Part shown: positions 11,578 through 60,737 of the stretch, in pieces
Numbering within the stretch: position 1 is the stretch's first letter
Layout: the number at the start of each line of letters is the position of its first letter
NCBI GenBank assembly: GCA_030765605.1
Contig: JAVCCG010000072.1
Span: 1 to 64,000 of the forward strand
Source: Candidatus Alcyoniella australis
GTDB lineage: Bacteria > Lernaellota > Lernaellaia > JAVCCG01 > Alcyoniellaceae
Direction of reading: 5' to 3'
DNA length: 64,000 nt
Made by a program: the position numbers and the translations under genes
Notes under the pieces: generated by a model
Told to the model about the DNA's origin: nothing
Database searches by the model: none
What the model saw: the letters and a program-made list of their open reading frames with translations, nothing else

Positions 11578-11636
11578 TTAATCCGGGTTCGGTTTATAAG
11601 CTGAGGAAAGCGACATCAAAACCCGCATTATTAATG
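11578..11636. repeat. Imperfect inverted repeat around the pruA promoter
   Basis: Left arm TTAATCCGGGTT (11578-11589) and right arm AACCCGCATTATTAA (11620-11634) are inverted relative to each other with one mismatch and a short insertion. It may be a regulator's paired operator. The right arm plus two bases (AACCCGCATTATTAATG, 11620-11636) also matches the end repeat of the element at 58314-58495 in 15 of 17 positions, so it could be a relic of that family. Confidence 0.45.
11593..11620 (-). promoter_or_regulatory. Candidate promoter of the pruA operon
   Basis: Minus strand: TTTGAT (11620-11615), 16-base spacer, TATAAA (11598-11593), then about 37 bases to the pruA ATG including AAGGAGG. The -35 is weak. 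The promoter lies between the two arms of an inverted repeat (CCGGGTT at 11583-11589 and AACCCG at 11620-11625), placed as operator half-sites might be. Confidence 0.4.
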
Positions 11637-11681
11637 AGGGTTAATTAAACTCAGTATACGCCCACCGCGTCTGATATCAAC

Positions 11682-12652: not shown

Positions 12653-13939
12653 GTGACAAACCGCCGAGGTCTATTGCTCGGGGCGATCGTCGGACTGGCG
12701 ATGGTCCTGTTCTACTTCAGCGCTCCCAACGCCTTCGAGCTGTTCGAGCTGCAGCTGCTCGATTATCGCCTGCGCAGTCGGCCGGTGGAGCCGGGCCCGG
12801 AGAAGATCTCGGTGATCCTGGTCGACGAACGGGCAATGGGCCGCTACGGCCTGGGTGAGAAGTTCAAGTTTGCCCTGGCCGAGCTGATCGAGGAACTGAC
12901 CTCCGAGGGTGTCAAGGTGATCGCCCTGGACATCATTTTCCCCACTCCGCGCGATAACGAATCGAGCTCCTCCGATCGACTCAGCCTCGCGATTCACAAC
13001 GCCCAATGCGTTGTGCTCGGATACCGTTGGGACATCCCGGGCTTCATTGAGCCGTTCAACAACCTGGAACGAGCCGAGCGGCTACGCGTGGTGCTCGGCG
13101 AGCATGGATGGCGCTACGGCTACCGTGAGAATATCCCGCAGGCGGTCTATCCTACTCCCAAGCGCGCACTCATCAGCGACATGCGCATTGTCAGGTCCGC
13201 CTGTTCCCAGGGCTATGTCTCGGTGATCGCCGGACTCGACCTGTCGGTGCGTACGGTCCCGATGGCGATCTCGATGCAGCAGCATTTCCTACCGCCGTTC
13301 TCGGTAAGCATCGTGCGCAAATTCCGCGACAACGAAGAATTCGTGGTCCAGGCCGAGGATGGCGTGGTCCAGAAGATCGTCCTGGGAGATCGCGAGCTGC
13401 CCGTGGACATGGCCGGACGCTTGCTCCTGCTGCCGCCAGGTCCGCCCTCTTCGATCCAGACCTACGACTTCATCAGCGCATTGGCCGGAGAGATCCCCTC
13501 CTACCGCCTCAAAGACGGCATCGTGCTGATCGGCGTCTCGGCCATGGGCGGACACGACAACTTCACCACCAGCTACGGCCCAAACACTCCCGGTGTGTAC
13601 GTGCACGCCGAGGCCGTGCACAACATGCTCGACGGCCGGTTCCTCAGGCGCGATCTGCCGATCAGACGCGCCGAGACCCTGATAATGCTGCTGCTGCCTA
13701 TTATCCTGGGGCTGCTCATTGCCCAAGTCAGACCGATCTTCGCCCTGCTGCTGCCGCCGATAATCGCCATGGCGCTGATCTACATGGCGCAGCTGTTTTT
13801 AGAACGATGGGGCCTATGGTTCCTGACCAGCTACGCCGTAGTGGCGCTGTTCAGCGCGCAGATCGTGATCCTCGGCGCGCGGCTGGCCGTGGCCGACAAG
13901 ATCATCCGCTGCGGCCAGGAGCGAGAAAACTCGGCATAG
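12653..13939 (+). CDS. CHASE2-domain membrane protein without an output domain
   Basis: About 428 residues. An N-terminal membrane helix (LLLGAIVGLAMVLFYF) is followed by the CHASE2 signature FELFELQLLDYRLRSRP, a long extracytoplasmic sensor region (ISVILVDERAMGRYG, VKVIALDIIFPTPRD, KDGIVLIGVSAMGGHD, TPGVYVHAEAVHNML) and three closely spaced C-terminal helices, the usual CHASE2 ending. In most relatives an adenylate cyclase, kinase or GGDEF domain follows; here only about 15 residues follow the last helix (VADKIIRCGQERENSA). The start is GTG at 12653 with GGGAGG three bases upstream; an in-frame TTG at 12584 is less likely. It presumably signals through a partner encoded elsewhere, or is a truncated sensor. 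Confidence 0.82.
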   Translation: MTNRRGLLLGAIVGLAMVLFYFSAPNAFELFELQLLDYRLRSRPVEPGPEKISVILVDERAMGRYGLGEKFKFALAELIEELTSEGVKVIALDIIFPTPRDNESSSSDRLSLAIHNAQCVVLGYRWDIPGFIEPFNNLERAERLRVVLGEHGWRYGYRENIPQAVYPTPKRALISDMRIVRSACSQGYVSVIAGLDLSVRTVPMAISMQQHFLPPFSVSIVRKFRDNEEFVVQAEDGVVQKIVLGDRELPVDMAGRLLLLPPGPPSSIQTYDFISALAGEIPSYRLKDGIVLIGVSAMGGHDNFTTSYGPNTPGVYVHAEAVHNMLDGRFLRRDLPIRRAETLIMLLLPIILGLLIAQVRPIFALLLPPIIAMALIYMAQLFLERWGLWFLTSYAVVALFSAQIVILGARLAVADKIIRCGQERENSA

Positions 13940-13961
13940 CCCGCATTCTTCATGCCGGCTA
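13937..13961. terminator. Hairpin between convergent CHASE2 and sugar-transferase genes
   Basis: TAGCC-c-GCAT, loop TCTTC, ATGC-c-GGCTA: five plus four base pairs with one C/C mismatch. It overlaps the stop codons of both convergent genes, so it may end transcription from both sides; TTTTT follows on the plus strand at about 13969. Its left part (AGCCCGCATTCTTCATG) is similar to the end repeat of the element at 58314. Confidence 0.45.
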
Positions 13962-25971: not shown

Positions 25972-27437
25972 CGGGCGCTGCGTCCCAGGGCATCGCGGAT
26001 CAGGCTCAGCGCCCGGCGCGGATCGATCGCGCCCAACGCCTTGAGCAACCAGAAGTAGCCGACCAGCACCGCGGCCTTAATTGCCAGCGGCGCGAGCAGC
26101 TGGTCGGGCCGCAGCTGGATCAGGTGTACGCCCAGGCCGATGACCGCGTAGGAGCCCAGCACCAGGGCGACACGGCGCAGGCGGTACGGCATTGGGTTGA
26201 GCCGCTGGCTCCACAGATAGACGATCAGCGTCAGCAGCAGATAGCTGGCGCAGGTGGCGGCCGCCGCGCCGACAATGTTCCAACGCGGGATCCAATACAG
26301 GTTGAGCAGCACGTTGAGTCCGGCCGACGCGGCCGTGGCCAGGGGAATCATCCCCGTGCGTTTGAGCAGCAGCAGGTTGTTGATCAGCGGGTAGTACATG
26401 CCGTGGGCCAAATAGCCGCCGATGACCCAGGGCACCACGCGGTGCGCCTCGTAAAAGCGCTCGGGCGTGAGCAGCATGATCCCCTCGCGCGCGAACAGCA
26501 CGCCAAAGGCCGCGGCCAGCCCCAGGTAGGCCCAGTAGTCCTCGGCCACGCGCGCCAGGTGCCGCTTGGCATCGGGATTGTTCTTGACCTCGCGCAGGTG
26601 GTAGGGCAGGAACGCGCGGTTGAAAGCCAGGTTGATCGCCGACATCAGCATGCCGATGTTGTAGCCCAGCGAGTACAGCCCCACGCGGTCCAGCGACGTC
26701 ATCCGTTCGAGCAGCACGCGGTCCAGAAACGTCTGCGACCAGTTGGCCACGGCGTGAGCGGTCAGCGGCAGACCGTAGATCAACGAGCGTTTGAGCATCG
26801 GCAAATCCAGCGCCGGACGCGCCTTGCGCCAAATCAGCACGCTCATGATTACGAAGAACACCGCCACCGCAATAAAACGCGCCCACAGCGCTGCCCGCGC
26901 CGAACGCTCGATTCCAACCAGCGCCAGCACCACCAGCCCGGCGATCAGCAGGTATTCGCCGATCTGCAATATTGCGTAGAGCCCGGCGCGCTCGCTTGCA
27001 CGCAGCATCGCCATCGGCACCACGTGGCTCAGCTGGCAAAAGGCAATCAGCACGCCCAGGGCCAGAAACGGCCAGAAACCCATGGACGTATCTTTGACCA
27101 GCAGCGGGCCCCAGTATTTGCCGGTAGCCAGGGCGGCCACGGTCAGCAGCAGACCGACCGCGATCAGAAATCCGGCGCTGGTCCCCAGAAAGCGCTTGAG
27201 ACGCGCCGGATCGCCCTCGTAATCGAAATAGAAGCGCAGCACCGACGAGCGAAATCCCAGCTCGGTCAGCGCCAGCATGATCGCGGCCAGCGAGGTGACG
27301 TAGGTGACGATCCCGTACTGGCGCTCGCTGAGCAGGTAGGTGTAGATCGGGATCAGCGCCAGGGCCATCAGCTTGGGAGCCAGGTTGCCCAGCGCGTAAA
27401 ATCCCGAGCCGCGCAACAGGCTTGCGGCCCTGCTCAT
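25968..27437 (-). CDS. Oligosaccharide flippase (Wzx/polysaccharide biosynthesis protein)
   Basis: 489 residues from ATG at 27437, overlapping the wecB stop as ATGA; a longer frame upstream is shadow. Twelve to fourteen hydrophobic segments in the MOP-exporter layout: SGFYALGNLAPKLMALALIPIYT at the N-terminus, TYVTSLAAIMLALTELGFRSSVLRFYFDY near 60-90, and VPWVIGGYLAHGMYYPLINNLLLLKR near 370. Moves undecaprenyl-diphosphate-linked glycan from the cytoplasmic to the periplasmic face for Wzy/WaaL. Together with the ligase-like gene at 16514 it indicates a Wzx/Wzy-type rather than an ABC-transporter route. Confidence 0.9.
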   Translation of the reverse strand: MSRAASLLRGSGFYALGNLAPKLMALALIPIYTYLLSERQYGIVTYVTSLAAIMLALTELGFRSSVLRFYFDYEGDPARLKRFLGTSAGFLIAVGLLLTVAALATGKYWGPLLVKDTSMGFWPFLALGVLIAFCQLSHVVPMAMLRASERAGLYAILQIGEYLLIAGLVVLALVGIERSARAALWARFIAVAVFFVIMSVLIWRKARPALDLPMLKRSLIYGLPLTAHAVANWSQTFLDRVLLERMTSLDRVGLYSLGYNIGMLMSAINLAFNRAFLPYHLREVKNNPDAKRHLARVAEDYWAYLGLAAAFGVLFAREGIMLLTPERFYEAHRVVPWVIGGYLAHGMYYPLINNLLLLKRTGMIPLATAASAGLNVLLNLYWIPRWNIVGAAAATCASYLLLTLIVYLWSQRLNPMPYRLRRVALVLGSYAVIGLGVHLIQLRPDQLLAPLAIKAAVLVGYFWLLKALGAIDPRRALSLIRDALGRSAR

Positions 27438-56069: not shown

Positions 56070-57485
56070 ATGGCCAACGTCCTGCTACTCCGACCCGGTC
56101 CCGACAAACTTGCGTCGCGACGCAAGTTCGTGCCCGACCTGGGCATCGGCTATTTGAGCTCGACGCTCAAGGCTCACGAGCACCGGGTGTGCTTCGTCGA
56201 TCTCAATGCTCCGGGATTAGGCCCCGACGCCCTGGCCAACGTACTGCGCTCGGAGTGCTTCGACCTTGTCGGGATCAAGGCCTTTAGCAACGAGACCCCG
56301 CACGTGGTCGACTGTCTGCAAACCGTGAAAAGCCTCAGCCCGCAAAGCGTGAGTATCCTCGGCGGTCCGCATCCCTCGGGAATGGGCGTGCGCGTGCTCG
56401 AGCAATTCCCGCAGCTCGACCTGGCGCAGGTCAGCGAGGCCGAGAGCGGCCTGCCGATGCTGGCCGCCCTGGTTGCGGAACACGGCCGCGACGCGCTGGA
56501 GCGCGCCGACGATCTGGCGTCGATCCCGGGCCTAGTCTATCGCAGCGACAACGGAGCGCAGGCCAACGAGCGCGCGCTGGTCGAGGACCTGGACAGCCTG
56601 GGCCTGCCCGACTTCGAGGCGATGAACCTGCGCTGGTTCGTCAAGCATCCGGCGTGCTTCTTCGGCCAGTACATCCCGCTGATGACCGGCCGCGGCTGCC
56701 CCATGCCCTGCACCTACTGCGCGGCGCGGCTGATCAGCGGCAGGCAACGCCGGGTGCACGGGCTGGACTATCTGCTCGAATACCTGCGCCGCGTGCGCGA
56801 CGACTACGGCGCGTCGAGCTTCTCGCTGATCGACGACCACTTCCTGGCCGAGTCGCAGTTCGCCCTGGCGTTCTGCAACCGGCTGGTCGATGAACAGATC
56901 GGCCTGCGCTGGCAGTGCGCGTCCAACGGCGTGCGCGCTGAGATGCTCAGCGAGGAGCTGGTGCGCGCCATGGAGCGCTCGGGCTGCCGCTTTATCTCGG
57001 TGGGCATCGAGTCCGGCGCGCCGCGGGTACTCGAGCTGATGAAACGCCGGGTCGACGTGCAAACCCTCTACGAGAAGATCGCGATGGTGCGACGCGTCAG
57101 CTCGATCCGCGTCTGCGGCTTCCACGTGCTGGGCTTCCCCGGCGAGACCGAGCAGGAGCGCGAGCAGACCCTGCGCGGCTCGTTGCGCAGTCGGCTGGAC
57201 TACGCCGACTTCCTGATCTTCCAGCCCTTCCCCGGCTCGGTAATCGGCGATCGCATGCTGGGCTCGATGGCGCTGGAGACCCTGGCCAACATCGACTACG
57301 ACCGGCCGACCACCGCGATGGACCCGCAGACCGCGCTCCAGGTCAAGCGCTTTCAGCGCAAGGCCTATTTGCGCTTCTACCTGCGACCGCGGGTGCTGTT
57401 CGGCGCGCTGGTGCGCGGGCCCTCGCTACGGATCATGTTTAAAAATTTACTCTCGGTATTCATGCCCAGCCGGGGCGGCCGATGA
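56070..57485 (+). CDS. B12-binding radical SAM protein
   Basis: 471 residues, ATG at 56070 preceded by AGGGGATAG. Residues about 1-135 are a cobalamin-binding-like domain (VLLLRPGPDK, LGIGYLSSTLKAHEHRVCFVDLNAPG, SVSILGGPHPSGMG), followed by a radical SAM core with Cys210, Cys214 and Cys217 in TGRGCPMPCTYCAAR, SFSLIDDHFLAES, RFISVGIESGAPRVLELMKRRV and VCGFHVLGFPGETEQERE. Similar proteins make methylations in lipid, hopanoid or antibiotic pathways, but no specific match is claimed. ATGA overlap with the GT2 gene downstream, so the two are translated together. Confidence 0.87.
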   Translation: MANVLLLRPGPDKLASRRKFVPDLGIGYLSSTLKAHEHRVCFVDLNAPGLGPDALANVLRSECFDLVGIKAFSNETPHVVDCLQTVKSLSPQSVSILGGPHPSGMGVRVLEQFPQLDLAQVSEAESGLPMLAALVAEHGRDALERADDLASIPGLVYRSDNGAQANERALVEDLDSLGLPDFEAMNLRWFVKHPACFFGQYIPLMTGRGCPMPCTYCAARLISGRQRRVHGLDYLLEYLRRVRDDYGASSFSLIDDHFLAESQFALAFCNRLVDEQIGLRWQCASNGVRAEMLSEELVRAMERSGCRFISVGIESGAPRVLELMKRRVDVQTLYEKIAMVRRVSSIRVCGFHVLGFPGETEQEREQTLRGSLRSRLDYADFLIFQPFPGSVIGDRMLGSMALETLANIDYDRPTTAMDPQTALQVKRFQRKAYLRFYLRPRVLFGALVRGPSLRIMFKNLLSVFMPSRGGR

Positions 57486-58213
57486 GCGAACCGCGCAAGC
57501 TGAGCATCGTCATCCCCTGCTACAACGAGCAGCTCTACGTCTACGAGGTGCTGCGCCGCGCCTGCCACGTCGATCTGGACGAGCCGAACATGCAACGCGA
57601 GGTATTGATCGTGGACGACGGCTCCAGCGACGGATCGGTGGAGCAGATCGAAGCGTTCATCGCCGAGCATCCAAGCGCGCCGGTTAAGCTGCTGCGCCAC
57701 GAGCGCAACCGCGGCAAGGGAGCCGCAATCCGCAGCGCCCTGGCACAGGCGACCGGCGATTTCCTGATCGTGCAGGATGCGGACCTCGAATACTCGATCG
57801 AGGACTACCCCAAGCTGCTGCGGCCGCTGCTCGAGGGCAAACCCGTGGTCTACGGCACGCGCCACTCGGGGCGCATCTGGCGTACGCACATCTCGGGCAC
57901 GATCTTCGCCCTGGGCGGAGCGCTGGAGAACATCTTCTTCCGCCTGCTCTACCCACGCGGCCCGACGATGACCGACATCGCCACCTGCTATAAGTGCTTC
58001 CGCATGGACGTGATCAAGAGCCTGCCGCTGCGTTGCGAGGGGTTCGAGTTCTGCCCCGAGGTCTCGGCGATGCTCGCCAACCGCAAGCTGCCGATCCACG
58101 AGGTGCTGGTGAGCTACACCCCGCGCAAAGTCTGGCAGGGCAAGAAGATCCGCACCCGCGACTTCTTCATCGCCATCGCCACCCTCTGGCGCGTGCGCAC
58201 ACGGCGTTTGTAG
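57482..58213 (+). CDS. GT2 glycosyltransferase, polyprenyl-phosphate sugar synthase-like
   Basis: 243 residues. GT-A domain with LSIVIPCYNEQLYVYEVLRRA, EVLIVDDGSSDGS, LRHERNRGKGAAIRSAL, FLIVQDADLEYSIEDYPKLLRPL (metal-binding DxD position) and MTDIATCYKCFRMDVIKSLPLRCEGFEF. No membrane helices apart from a hydrophobic ISGTIFALGGALENIFFRLL segment. Close in style to dolichyl/undecaprenyl-phosphate sugar synthases, which make donors for GT39-like transferases; one lies two genes upstream. The donor sugar is unknown. The plus-strand run ends here: a small GG-CACCT/AGGTG-CC hairpin (58213-58230) follows the stop. Confidence 0.85.
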   Translation: MSEPRKLSIVIPCYNEQLYVYEVLRRACHVDLDEPNMQREVLIVDDGSSDGSVEQIEAFIAEHPSAPVKLLRHERNRGKGAAIRSALAQATGDFLIVQDADLEYSIEDYPKLLRPLLEGKPVVYGTRHSGRIWRTHISGTIFALGGALENIFFRLLYPRGPTMTDIATCYKCFRMDVIKSLPLRCEGFEFCPEVSAMLANRKLPIHEVLVSYTPRKVWQGKKIRTRDFFIAIATLWRVRTRRL

Positions 58214-58295: not shown

Positions 58296-58313
58296 ACGCC
58301 AACGCTGCGTGTT

Positions 58314-58495
58314 AGCCCGGATTATTAATGGAGATTCGTATACGAGGCGTGCAAGATGCCGCAAGAACTAGGAAGCCGAGTCGATACTCCGCAGGCGTAC
58401 CCGCTGAGGTACGTCGAGGATGGATCGACGAGGATGACAAAGTTATTGCGCGCAGATTGTGCGCCGCAGTAGAAGCCTCATTAATATTCCGGGCT
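58314..58495. repeat. 182-bp structured element with 17-bp terminal inverted repeats
   Basis: The ends are AGCCCGGATTATTAATG (58314-58330) and CATTAATATTCCGGGCT (58479-58495), inverted with 16 of 17 pairs; a T/A pair adds one more outside. Inside, several self-complementary stretches follow each other: TCGTATACGA (58336-58345), GGCGT/ATGCC (58346-58360), GAGT/ACTC (58378-58389), an 8-bp stem GGCGTACC/GGTACGTC (58394-58415) with loop CGCTGA, an alternative CGTCGA/TCGACG (58412-58430), and GCGCGCA/TGTGCGC (58448-58464). There is no coding potential. It sits between convergent genes and its right end touches the stop codon of the minus-strand lipoprotein. It may be a miniature mobile/intergenic repeat or a structured RNA. 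Confidence 0.65.
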
Positions 58496-60737
58496 ACCGC
58501 ACCCAGCCGTGGTAGCGTCCGCCCCAGTAGACCATCAGCCACTCGGCCCCGGCATAGCGGTTGTACGGCCCGCCGCGAGGCGTGGCTTTCCAGTCCGGCG
58601 CGTAAGACCAGTAGTACTCTTTGGCCGGCCGGCGCTCGATGGGGATGTAGACGTCTCCGGCCGAGTAGTCCTGATTGACCGTGGCATACCAATAGCCGTT
58701 ATCGAGCATCGGCACGTCGGTGCGCTGCAGTTCGTTGAGCGCGATCAGCCCGCCGTTGGAATCCGGGTTGTGCGCGCGATGGGTCAGGTTGGCCGCCGCG
58801 TTGCCGAAGTCGTGGCTGCCGGCGTAGATGTAGTCCAGCACCCGCGCCAATTCGCCGTAGATCTGCGGATCCTCCTCGTAGGCCAGCAGGTGGTAAAACC
58901 CCGAGTCGAGGAAGTGCTGGCCGCCGTACTTGCGCGCGATGTTGTGCATCGCGTAGTAGACCAGCAGCGTGGCCTGATCCATCCGTTCGCCGTAGTAGAT
59001 ATCGAGGAACTTATCGCGGAAGCGCTGCTCGCCGGTGATGTGCCAGGCGATCTGTAAAAAGCACAGTGCCAGCGAGGGCGAGGCGCGCAGGTTGCCGAAG
59101 GTGGCGTTCTGGCCGTCGAACTGCACGGCCCGTAGGCCGTTATCCACGATCAACGTCATGATCTCGTGTACGTCCTGGCGGATGGTGGCGCGCTCCTGCT
59201 CGTCGGCCACCAGGTCGTAGTAGTTGGCGATCCCCGGCAGATAGCCCGCGAGCTGGTCGATCGAGATGTCCCCCACCCAGTACAGCTCCTTGACCGGGTG
59301 GCGGTGCCAACGCTTGATCGTGTCCGAATTGGGTTGCAGCGGCACGAGCTGCTCAAAGAAGTATGTGGTGTAGTTGCGCACTACCTCGCCGGGCAGCGGC
59401 GTGGTGTGCGACATGTTGTGCAGGGTCTGCCAGGCGCGTCGCGCATACTCCGCGGCCTCGGGATCGCCCGTGACCGCGTAGCGGAAGCTCTGGGCCGAGC
59501 AGTAGATCCCGGTCAGCCAACAGGCGTCCTCCTGCCACCAGTTGGAGCCCGCGTCCACCGGCCACTGGCCGTCGCGCACCGTGACGATCTGACCGTCGCG
59601 CCAGCACTTGGCGTGTAAATGCTCGTCGATCCACAGCGCGCTGTCCTCGAGTTCGACATCGGCCGCCAGGGCCGTGTCGGGCTGCTGCGCCTGCTCGTCG
59701 AACAGATCCCAACTATAGCCCACGGCGCGCCCCGTATAGCGTTGCGCAAGCTCGATCTGTTGCTCCACGCGCTCGGGGTCGGCCGGTCCGGGCCAGGGAC
59801 GCAGCGTCCCTTGGTCCACCGTGTCGAACAGCTCGACCTGCGCGGCCAGCTCCACTTGTGCGCCGAGCATCGTGCGCGCCTCGAGCAGCGAGGCGTAGTC
59901 GCGCTCGAGGGTAATCCAGTTGTTGCGATGTGCGCCGATCCGGTCGGCGATCAGCAGCACGTCGACCCCGCAGGCCATCGCCGCCTCGATCCAGCTGCGC
60001 GCCCAAAACGCGCGAAATTGCGAGTCGTCGATTTCTTCAATCTGCACGTCGCTGTCGCGTCGCAAAATCTCATCGACCATCAGGGTCAGCGGCGGTCCGG
60101 GGTAGCACGCGCTGATCCACAACTGTTGGTCGGGCGCCGCGTCGTGGCATGCGTCAGCGACCTTGGTCAGCAGCGAGAGCCACTGCGGTCCGGGCTCGGC
60201 CGTCAGCTCGTAGTTGAGGTAGAACCCGAGCAGCGCCGGATGATCGGCGTACAACGCGCTGAGTTCCTGGACCAGCGCGGTCTGGCGCGCGACCTCCGCG
60301 GCCTCGGGATCGAGGTTGATCTCCGCGGCGTTGCGCGCGGCGCTCAGGCCGATCACTACTTGCATCTGGTTTTCTTGCGCAGCGTCGAGCAGCGCGGTCA
60401 CCAAATCGTCCACTGCCAGACCGTCCATCCGCTCGAAGCGCGACGAGGCGTAGAGCGCCTCGTCGTGCAACAGGGTCCAGGGCAAAATCACAATCTTGGC
60501 TTGCAGCTCCTGTTTCGCGCGACCGAGCTTGGCCGACAGCTCGTCGGCCTCGAGCCCGGTGTTCCACAGCGGATCGAGAAACACGCCGTCGAGCTGCAAC
60601 ACGATCGTCTCGTCGTCATCGTCAGCGTGGTCGCCGCCGTCGTCGTCGTCATCGTCAGCGTCGCACGCGGCAAGGCCCGCGACGATCAGGCACAGCAAGG
60701 CGAGCAACAGCCAGCGTAAAATCGCGCGCGCGCTCAT
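58494..60737 (-). CDS. Poly-Asp lipoprotein with glycosidase-like (DUF4434-type) N-terminal region and helical barrel
   Basis: 747 residues. The signal ends with a canonical lipobox LAAC (Cys25); Asp at +2 would keep an enterobacterial lipoprotein in the inner membrane. Cys25 is followed at once by an Asp-rich stretch (DNA 60612-60662). Residues about 45-330 form a TIM-barrel-like region (LDGVFLDPLWNTGLEADEL, DHPALLGFYLNYELT, LWISACYPGPP, VGYSWDLFDEQ) similar to DUF4434 glycosidase-like proteins. Residues about 350-740 are helical, in the style of an alpha/alpha barrel (EYARRAWQTLHNMSH, RATIRQDVHEIMTLIVDNGLR, RFRDKFLDIYYGERMDQATLLVYYAMHN). I cannot assign an enzymatic activity. ATGA overlap with the BNR protein upstream. 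Confidence 0.78.
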   Translation of the reverse strand: MSARAILRWLLLALLCLIVAGLAACDADDDDDDGGDHADDDDETIVLQLDGVFLDPLWNTGLEADELSAKLGRAKQELQAKIVILPWTLLHDEALYASSRFERMDGLAVDDLVTALLDAAQENQMQVVIGLSAARNAAEINLDPEAAEVARQTALVQELSALYADHPALLGFYLNYELTAEPGPQWLSLLTKVADACHDAAPDQQLWISACYPGPPLTLMVDEILRRDSDVQIEEIDDSQFRAFWARSWIEAAMACGVDVLLIADRIGAHRNNWITLERDYASLLEARTMLGAQVELAAQVELFDTVDQGTLRPWPGPADPERVEQQIELAQRYTGRAVGYSWDLFDEQAQQPDTALAADVELEDSALWIDEHLHAKCWRDGQIVTVRDGQWPVDAGSNWWQEDACWLTGIYCSAQSFRYAVTGDPEAAEYARRAWQTLHNMSHTTPLPGEVVRNYTTYFFEQLVPLQPNSDTIKRWHRHPVKELYWVGDISIDQLAGYLPGIANYYDLVADEQERATIRQDVHEIMTLIVDNGLRAVQFDGQNATFGNLRASPSLALCFLQIAWHITGEQRFRDKFLDIYYGERMDQATLLVYYAMHNIARKYGGQHFLDSGFYHLLAYEEDPQIYGELARVLDYIYAGSHDFGNAAANLTHRAHNPDSNGGLIALNELQRTDVPMLDNGYWYATVNQDYSAGDVYIPIERRPAKEYYWSYAPDWKATPRGGPYNRYAGAEWLMVYWGGRYHGWVR

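Follow-up and report, generated by a model that had tools for sequence, protein, structure and literature searches.

What is the 182-bp palindromic stretch at 58314–58495, which lies between two converging genes of the window (the whole stretch of DNA analysed, 64,000 nucleotides)? A preliminary description had seen in it two 17-bp complementary ends that enclose a chain of hairpins, and had proposed either a miniature inverted-repeat element or a folded RNA. We suggest that the stretch, taken as a whole, is best explained as a non-autonomous transposon of the IS1380 type with a conserved folded core, and we put the probability of this explanation at about 0.8. The features of the locus are given below; A2 is an alignment of 35 elements and R2 is a covariance model, both of which are taken up later.

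57482–58213, + strand: family-2 glycosyltransferase gene.
58312–58315, no strand: left flank TTAG, remnant of a 4-bp target duplication (YTAR type), assigned from the family-wide 4-bp duplication.
58316–58331, + strand: left terminal inverted repeat CCCGGATTATTAATGG, IS1380 type; the motif CCYGSATTATTCATGA is common to the IS1380 elements L084, L087, L184, L186, and L187.
58343–58345, + strand: C-GA, the 5′ half of the basal GA/GNA internal loop (in A2, C28 in 33/35, G29 in 31/35, A30 in 32/35).
58346–58466, + strand: conserved structured core of about 120 nt, matched by R2 with 59.9 bits, E = 1.2e-12.
58394–58415, + strand: apical hairpin GGCGTACC-CGCTGA-GGTACGTC, then conserved GAGG; recognised by fixed offset and motif, with compensatory changes.
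58466–58469, + strand: GCAG, the 3′ half of the basal internal loop (in A2, G186 in 32/35, A188 in 31/35, G189 in 35/35).
58478–58493, − strand: right terminal inverted repeat; the minus strand reads CCCGGAATATTAATGA.
58494–58497, no strand: right flank CTAC; its CTA provides the stop codon, TAG, for the gene on the minus strand at 58494–60737.
58494–60737, − strand: DUF4434 protein gene.

The ends, AGCCCGGATTATTAATG and CATTAATATTCCGGGCT, pair at 16 of 17 positions and lie where the preliminary description had put them, and the 8-bp stem with the loop CGCTGA that it mentioned was located at 58394–58415. The neighbouring genes, for a glycosyltransferase (+) and a DUF4434 protein (−), do converge. 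When about 40 copies from the same genome were aligned with their flanks, the boundary was found at CC...GG, giving a transposon of 178 bp, 58316–58493; the outer AG and CT of the 182-bp stretch are part of the 4-bp flanks and are outside the transposon. The element had been said to reach into the stop codon of the minus-strand gene, which is not correct, as the TAG at 58494–58496 sits in the flank, just outside. The 182 nt fold with −87.8 kcal/mol, compared with −53.2 ± 4.3 kcal/mol for dinucleotide shuffles (z = −8.1; 0/200 as good). The self-pairing of the "at least five" local hairpins described earlier is present, and it is better read as one imperfect hairpin, with internal loops, that extends from end to end.

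The host genome (G000, 4.29 Mb in 157 contigs, 98% complete) contains about 40 diverged relatives of the element, most of them full length, and the comparison with the parent genome that had been proposed as a check gave about 36 matches to the 182 bp at E < 1e-25. These dispersed copies have no transposase reading frame. The mean pairwise identity of the 31 full-length copies is 82%, with a range of 72–96%, so none of them is fresh. Size variants of 268, 115/116, 73, 39, 26, and 22 bp all keep both ends, while sequence around the hairpin tip is lost in the shorter variants and gained in the longest. The end motif has 205 matches in the host genome at ≤3 mismatches, compared with 7 for the reversed motif. 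Among related genomes of one clade, the copy numbers are 41, 15, 2, and 0, a patchy spread.

Two mini-palindromes in the window, at 11621–11643 and 13938–13960, consist of little beyond the end motif, for example TA-GCCCGCATTCTTCATGCCGGC-TA. They resemble the 22–26 bp ends-only elements elsewhere in the genome and look like collapsed copies. Partial copies were also found directly beside full copies (L017:1434–1682 and L031:3947–4220), which suggests insertion next to or into an older copy.

Could the stretch be only a chance palindrome, or an ordinary intrinsic terminator between convergent genes? Its position between such genes, abutting a stop codon, is what a terminator might have. However, there is no T-run after the stem, and only 6 of 37 copies in the host genome are located between convergent genes. 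The copy number has already refuted a chance palindrome, and the z score of −8.1, the roughly 40 relatives in the genome, and the homologues in other phyla leave practically no room for either form of this explanation. Thus, the earlier view that this is not simple terminator DNA stands. It had been conceded at the outset that a single copy, without relatives and without covariation in the stems, would refute the idea of an element; none of the three is the case.

Insertion sequences of the IS1380 family have the same 16-bp ends, CCYGGATTATTCATGA, and in other genomes these ends bound complete IS1380 transposase genes. When public genomes were scanned for exact matches to TAGCCYGSATTATTCATGA, at least 118 stretches were found. 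Among the matches listed are Nitrospirota, Planctomycetota, Myxococcota, Acidobacteriota, Proteobacteria, Cyanobacteria, and others, and many of those listed are inverted pairs with a spacing of 160–240 bp. Two cyanobacterial pairs of ends, spaced 1.62–1.63 kb apart, enclose an IS1380 transposase of 449 aa. L084 and L087 match PF13701, the IS1380 transposase, at 2e-129 and 3e-120, and are far over the cut-off of NF033539; further IS1380 genes with such ends are found in L184, L186, and L187. Among the 386 sampled genomes, with the host genome excluded, PF13701 is present in 13 of the 20 that have four or more end motifs, compared with 61 of the 365 others (p = 5e-6).

The flanks give a second line of evidence. 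Within the family, insertion is at YTAR sites, mostly CTAG, with 4-bp duplications. In the host genome, an exact 4-bp duplication flanks 10 of 42 elements, compared with 3.8 by shuffling (p = 0.001), and the flanking 4 bp agree at 113 of 168 positions, compared with 95 for shuffled pairs. In other phyla, 40 of 73 elements have exact 4-bp duplications, with 27.8 for shuffled pairs. The window copy itself, with TTAG and CTAC, has a degenerate duplication in which 2 of 4 positions match. Duplications also flank the 22–26 bp ends-only elements, and around IS1380 elements we observed TTAG/TTAG (L184) and CACA/CACA (L187). A reading of the flanks as a 2-bp TA duplication was dropped for the 4-bp one once the IS1380 elements had been seen. 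The TA target dinucleotide of the ERIC/NEMIS type is not a criterion that the family meets, with copies between CAAG/CAAG, CTTG/CTTG, and CTGG/CTGG duplications. Two contigs classed as viral in IMG/VR (L180 and L181) carry perfect IS1380-type ends with CTAG/CTAG duplications; their interiors do not cluster with that of the window element.

Based on the ends, the duplications, and the co-occurrence, we propose that a DDE transposase of the IS1380 family would have bound the 16-bp ends and spread the element in trans. The transposase gene may then have been lost, leaving an element that no longer moves, as inferred from copies that are 72–96% identical. PF13701 was not found in the host genome at E ≤ 0.01, and an assembly in 157 contigs could have dropped one. 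In the absence of an autonomous IS1380 element, mobilisation in this host is not demonstrated; such an element in the same genome is not required of a relic MITE. IS630 (DDE_3) was rejected as a partner, being absent from the host genome. The core was not found in the IS1380 loci L084, L087, L182–L184, L186, and L187, so the MITE did not arise from one of these simply by internal deletion; an interior derived from the parent insertion sequence is true of some MITEs only. The proposal of a miniature inverted-repeat element is thus supported by the multiple copies, the IS1380-type ends, and the 4-bp duplications, without direct observation of mobility or of an empty site, and we regard the element as a non-autonomous IS1380-type transposon (MITE) that is probably stranded, or nearly so, in its host.

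A different transposase is available in the host genome, which has exactly one Y1 transposase gene, a RAYT (L041:1351–1923 (C95), NF047646 6.8e-43). The element could then be REPIN-like, mobilised by a RAYT that recognises single-stranded DNA hairpins. GTAG adjoins its right end, and in the outer stems of the stand-alone hairpins described below a C.C or G.A mismatch recurs, which may also be a feature of REP hairpins. Genomes that bear the core are enriched for Y1 genes (27/29 and 29/35), but such genes are present in 60% of genomes anyway, and G209 and G212 are rich in the element and yet have no Y1 match. There is no core, end motif, or REP-like element near the host RAYT, and no core or end motif near 30 other RAYT genes. 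The 4-bp duplications and IS1380 ends point instead to a DDE transposase, and we consider mobilisation by a RAYT unlikely.

What, then, is the interior of this IS1380-type transposon? By ordinary sequence comparison, the elements of other phyla are only weakly related to it. Nevertheless, the core, about 120 nt long, has homologues in Nitrospirota, Desulfobacterota, Proteobacteria, Acidobacteriota, and Planctomycetota. The elements of these phyla have in common an apical hairpin, GGCGTAC-loop-GTACGTCGAGG, which in most related elements begins 77–80 nt from the left end, whatever the total length. In several lineages, the apical stem has been rewritten with the pairing kept, as GGCATAC/GTATGTC, GGCATCC/GGATGTC, GGCAACC/GGTTGTT, and GGCGACC/GGTCGTC. 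The 40 proposed pairs tested in A2 hold in 91.9% of cells, and 28 of the 40 show two-sided (compensatory) change. The covariation score is 0.363, compared with 0.155 ± 0.008 for shuffled alignments and ≤0.09 for slid partners; the shuffle controls ignore relatedness, and the slid control carries more weight. Two G(N)A/GA internal loops, one basal and one apical, are nearly invariant in A2, and the basal loop has C28 G29 A30 opposite G186 N A188 G189. No match above the gathering threshold was obtained with 4227 Rfam families for the window element and related elements, and scans judged by E-value gave none either.

Compensatory changes in a palindrome could also arise by palindrome correction. 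Among the host copies alone, two-sided change is found in 26 of 57 predicted pairs, and the counts of G.U vs. A.C at pairs predicted on both strands, 20 vs. 16, do not differ significantly; only the cross-phylum counts, 21 vs. 3, are significant. The apical hairpin has a G.U wobble in 27 of the 35 elements in A2. Palindrome correction is disfavoured as the sole source of the compensatory changes, given the persistence of this wobble, of the G(N)A/GA loops, and of the strand bias described below; for the outer repeats it is not excluded.

A covariance model, R1, was built from A2, and matches 29 of 386 sampled genomes. It also matches, in about ten genomes and in Nitrospira, hairpins of about 120 nt that lack IS1380 ends. 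The outer stems of these stand-alone hairpins vary in sequence from genome to genome, but their pairing is maintained, in most cases with a single C.C or G.A mismatch. Their covariation score is 0.588, compared with 0.199 ± 0.017 when shuffled and ≤0.20 when slid. The second model, R2, was built only from 21 stand-alone hairpins of other genomes, and its sole match in the window is the core of the element. It has no match in 141 kb of control loci (RAYT and IS1380), and it matches 35 of 318 genomes, often with 10 or more copies in each. These counts are lower bounds, obtained with strict filters, and the model E-values are rough. PF13701 is enriched with the IS1380-ended type (11/20) and not with the stand-alone type (2/9).

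Attachment of the core to plasmids or phages was considered and rejected. The only plasmid copy of the stand-alone core is in Trichlorobacter lovleyi pGLOV01 at 26234–26318 (L272:4001–4085), between cobN and a DUF2149 gene; the phage search gave no match to the core, and the exact motif of the apical hairpin was absent from the viral contigs scanned. In one genome (G261; L302 and L238), stand-alone core hairpins are located between the tRNA genes of a tRNA cluster.

The same core is found with other ends. In G262 it is in 179-bp elements with GAGCCAATTGCAAAATT ends, and 4 of 6 copies have exact 4-bp duplications. G048 has near-identical copies of the core with TACTAAGTTGC ends (TACTAAGTTGCATTC) and TA on both sides. 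In Nitrospira (L161, L174, and L128), the same core is also found in a second family of palindromes, CAGGATGCTGAAAAAG...CTTTTTCAGCATCCTG, of which one member, in L128, is just upstream of tmRNA. Different transposon ends are compatible with the core, which therefore behaves as a passenger module, captured by or having captured several kinds of ends. We tentatively extend this, at somewhat less than even odds, to an undescribed pan-bacterial family of hairpins of about 120 nt with a transferable core, found stand-alone and inside MITEs with unrelated ends (the IS1380 type with CTAG, a second 4-bp class, and a TA class), and acting as a selfish RNA or single-stranded DNA module that exploits whatever transposase is available.

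These findings also bear on whether the stretch is a host gene for a structured RNA, or a host cis-element, whose copies were scattered by gene duplication and whose outermost helix is formed by the terminal repeats. The covariation across phyla would fit, as would the outer stems of the stand-alone hairpins, which vary between genomes and stay paired. In G127 (L348–L355 and L368–L375), a repeated gene family has the hairpin at the 3′ end of its genes, after the stop codon. Judged by eye from their translation, these genes look like autotransporters; identity is high in both the hairpin and the gene end, and the two may have spread together by duplication or conversion. However, the end motif of the window element is letter for letter that of transposase-bearing elements, flanked by duplications; copy number is patchy among related genomes; and there are the 22–26 bp elements that have only ends with flanking duplications. 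A host RNA gene is therefore improbable. The folded RNA of the preliminary description gains support in the form of a conserved folded core with strong covariation, with no RNA product shown, and the evidence supports the view that a MITE and a folded RNA do not exclude each other.

In which form might the core of the transposon be used? The strand oriented by the motif (+) folds better in 31/31 host copies, 34/35 cross-phylum elements, and 21/21 stand-alone hairpins, 86/87 in total. This nearly constant preference for one strand suggests selection for a single-stranded form, whether RNA or single-stranded DNA. With DNA parameters, the + strand is again better in 31/31, 31/35, and 19/21, respectively, so the two forms are not separated. 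Nearly all host copies (35/37) are intergenic. Gene starts are at a median of 11 bp from the right end, compared with 65 bp from the left, and, with host and other genomes pooled, the right end coincides exactly with a gene's stop codon in 14/31 cases and the left end in 3/26 (p = 0.008). The gene calls are from a simple codon model, and the polarity of the right end was examined after the fact. The TAG of a CTAG target supplies or preserves a stop codon at the right end, as at 58494–58496 in the window. In the host copies, the gene that abuts the right end is often antisense to the better-folding strand, so a simple 3′-UTR role of that strand does not fit.

The function of the core is inferred from conservation only, not demonstrated, and there are no transcript data. 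The most likely role, with roughly an even chance, is at the ends of mRNAs, where the core, transcribed by read-through, would act as an RNA hairpin for protection or processing. Our second choice, possible but doubtful, is a single-stranded DNA hairpin used in mobilisation.

The interiors of MITEs are usually regarded as dispensable filler. Here, an interior of filler size is conserved across phyla in sequence, loop motifs, and base pairs and has persisted while its ends were replaced, and it therefore probably does something for the element or the host. The two covariance models make the family findable in any genome, and the mobilising transposases become testable. Environmental bacteria, Nitrospira among them, have many intergenic repeats without annotation that the core family may account for. 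We are not aware of any reported MITE with an interior that is homologous and covaries between phyla, or with several unrelated ends. In the open-licence literature, as far as it was searched, we found no report of an IS1380-linked MITE of this kind or of this core; one may exist in a subscription journal or in ISfinder.

How does the element compare with known systems? Among IS1380 elements, IS1247 is given as 1672 bp with IR 16/13 and DR 5 (PMC3281130, Table 2). The window element is like the IS1380 elements in its 16-bp inverted repeats of the same type and short target duplication, and the complete elements of about 1.62–1.63 kb share its ends; it differs in being 178 bp long without a transposase gene, and its core is not in the IS1380 loci tested. 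The bacterial MITEs with strong folding listed in one paper (ERIC, NEMIS/Correia, RUP, YPAL, Nezha, EFAR, and Bcr1; PMC3733652) are similarly 70–300 bp long, non-coding, intergenic, and multicopy, with terminal repeats and a foldback structure, whereas their ends and target site are different. REP/REPIN elements with RAYT or TIRYT transposases (PMC3733652, PMC2817692, PMC3116915) resemble it in being palindromic and intergenic, with one RAYT and GTAG near one end. Unlike them, it is 120–180 nt instead of 20–40, has target duplications, and does not flank the RAYT gene; a GTAG-tagged palindrome of 20–40 bp, the REP/REPIN criterion, is not met by a 178-bp unit with IS1380 ends and GTAG at one end only. 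With Rfam families, it has in common a conserved secondary structure with compensatory changes. Thus, the MITE is of a known kind, and the conserved, end-swapping core is the new part.
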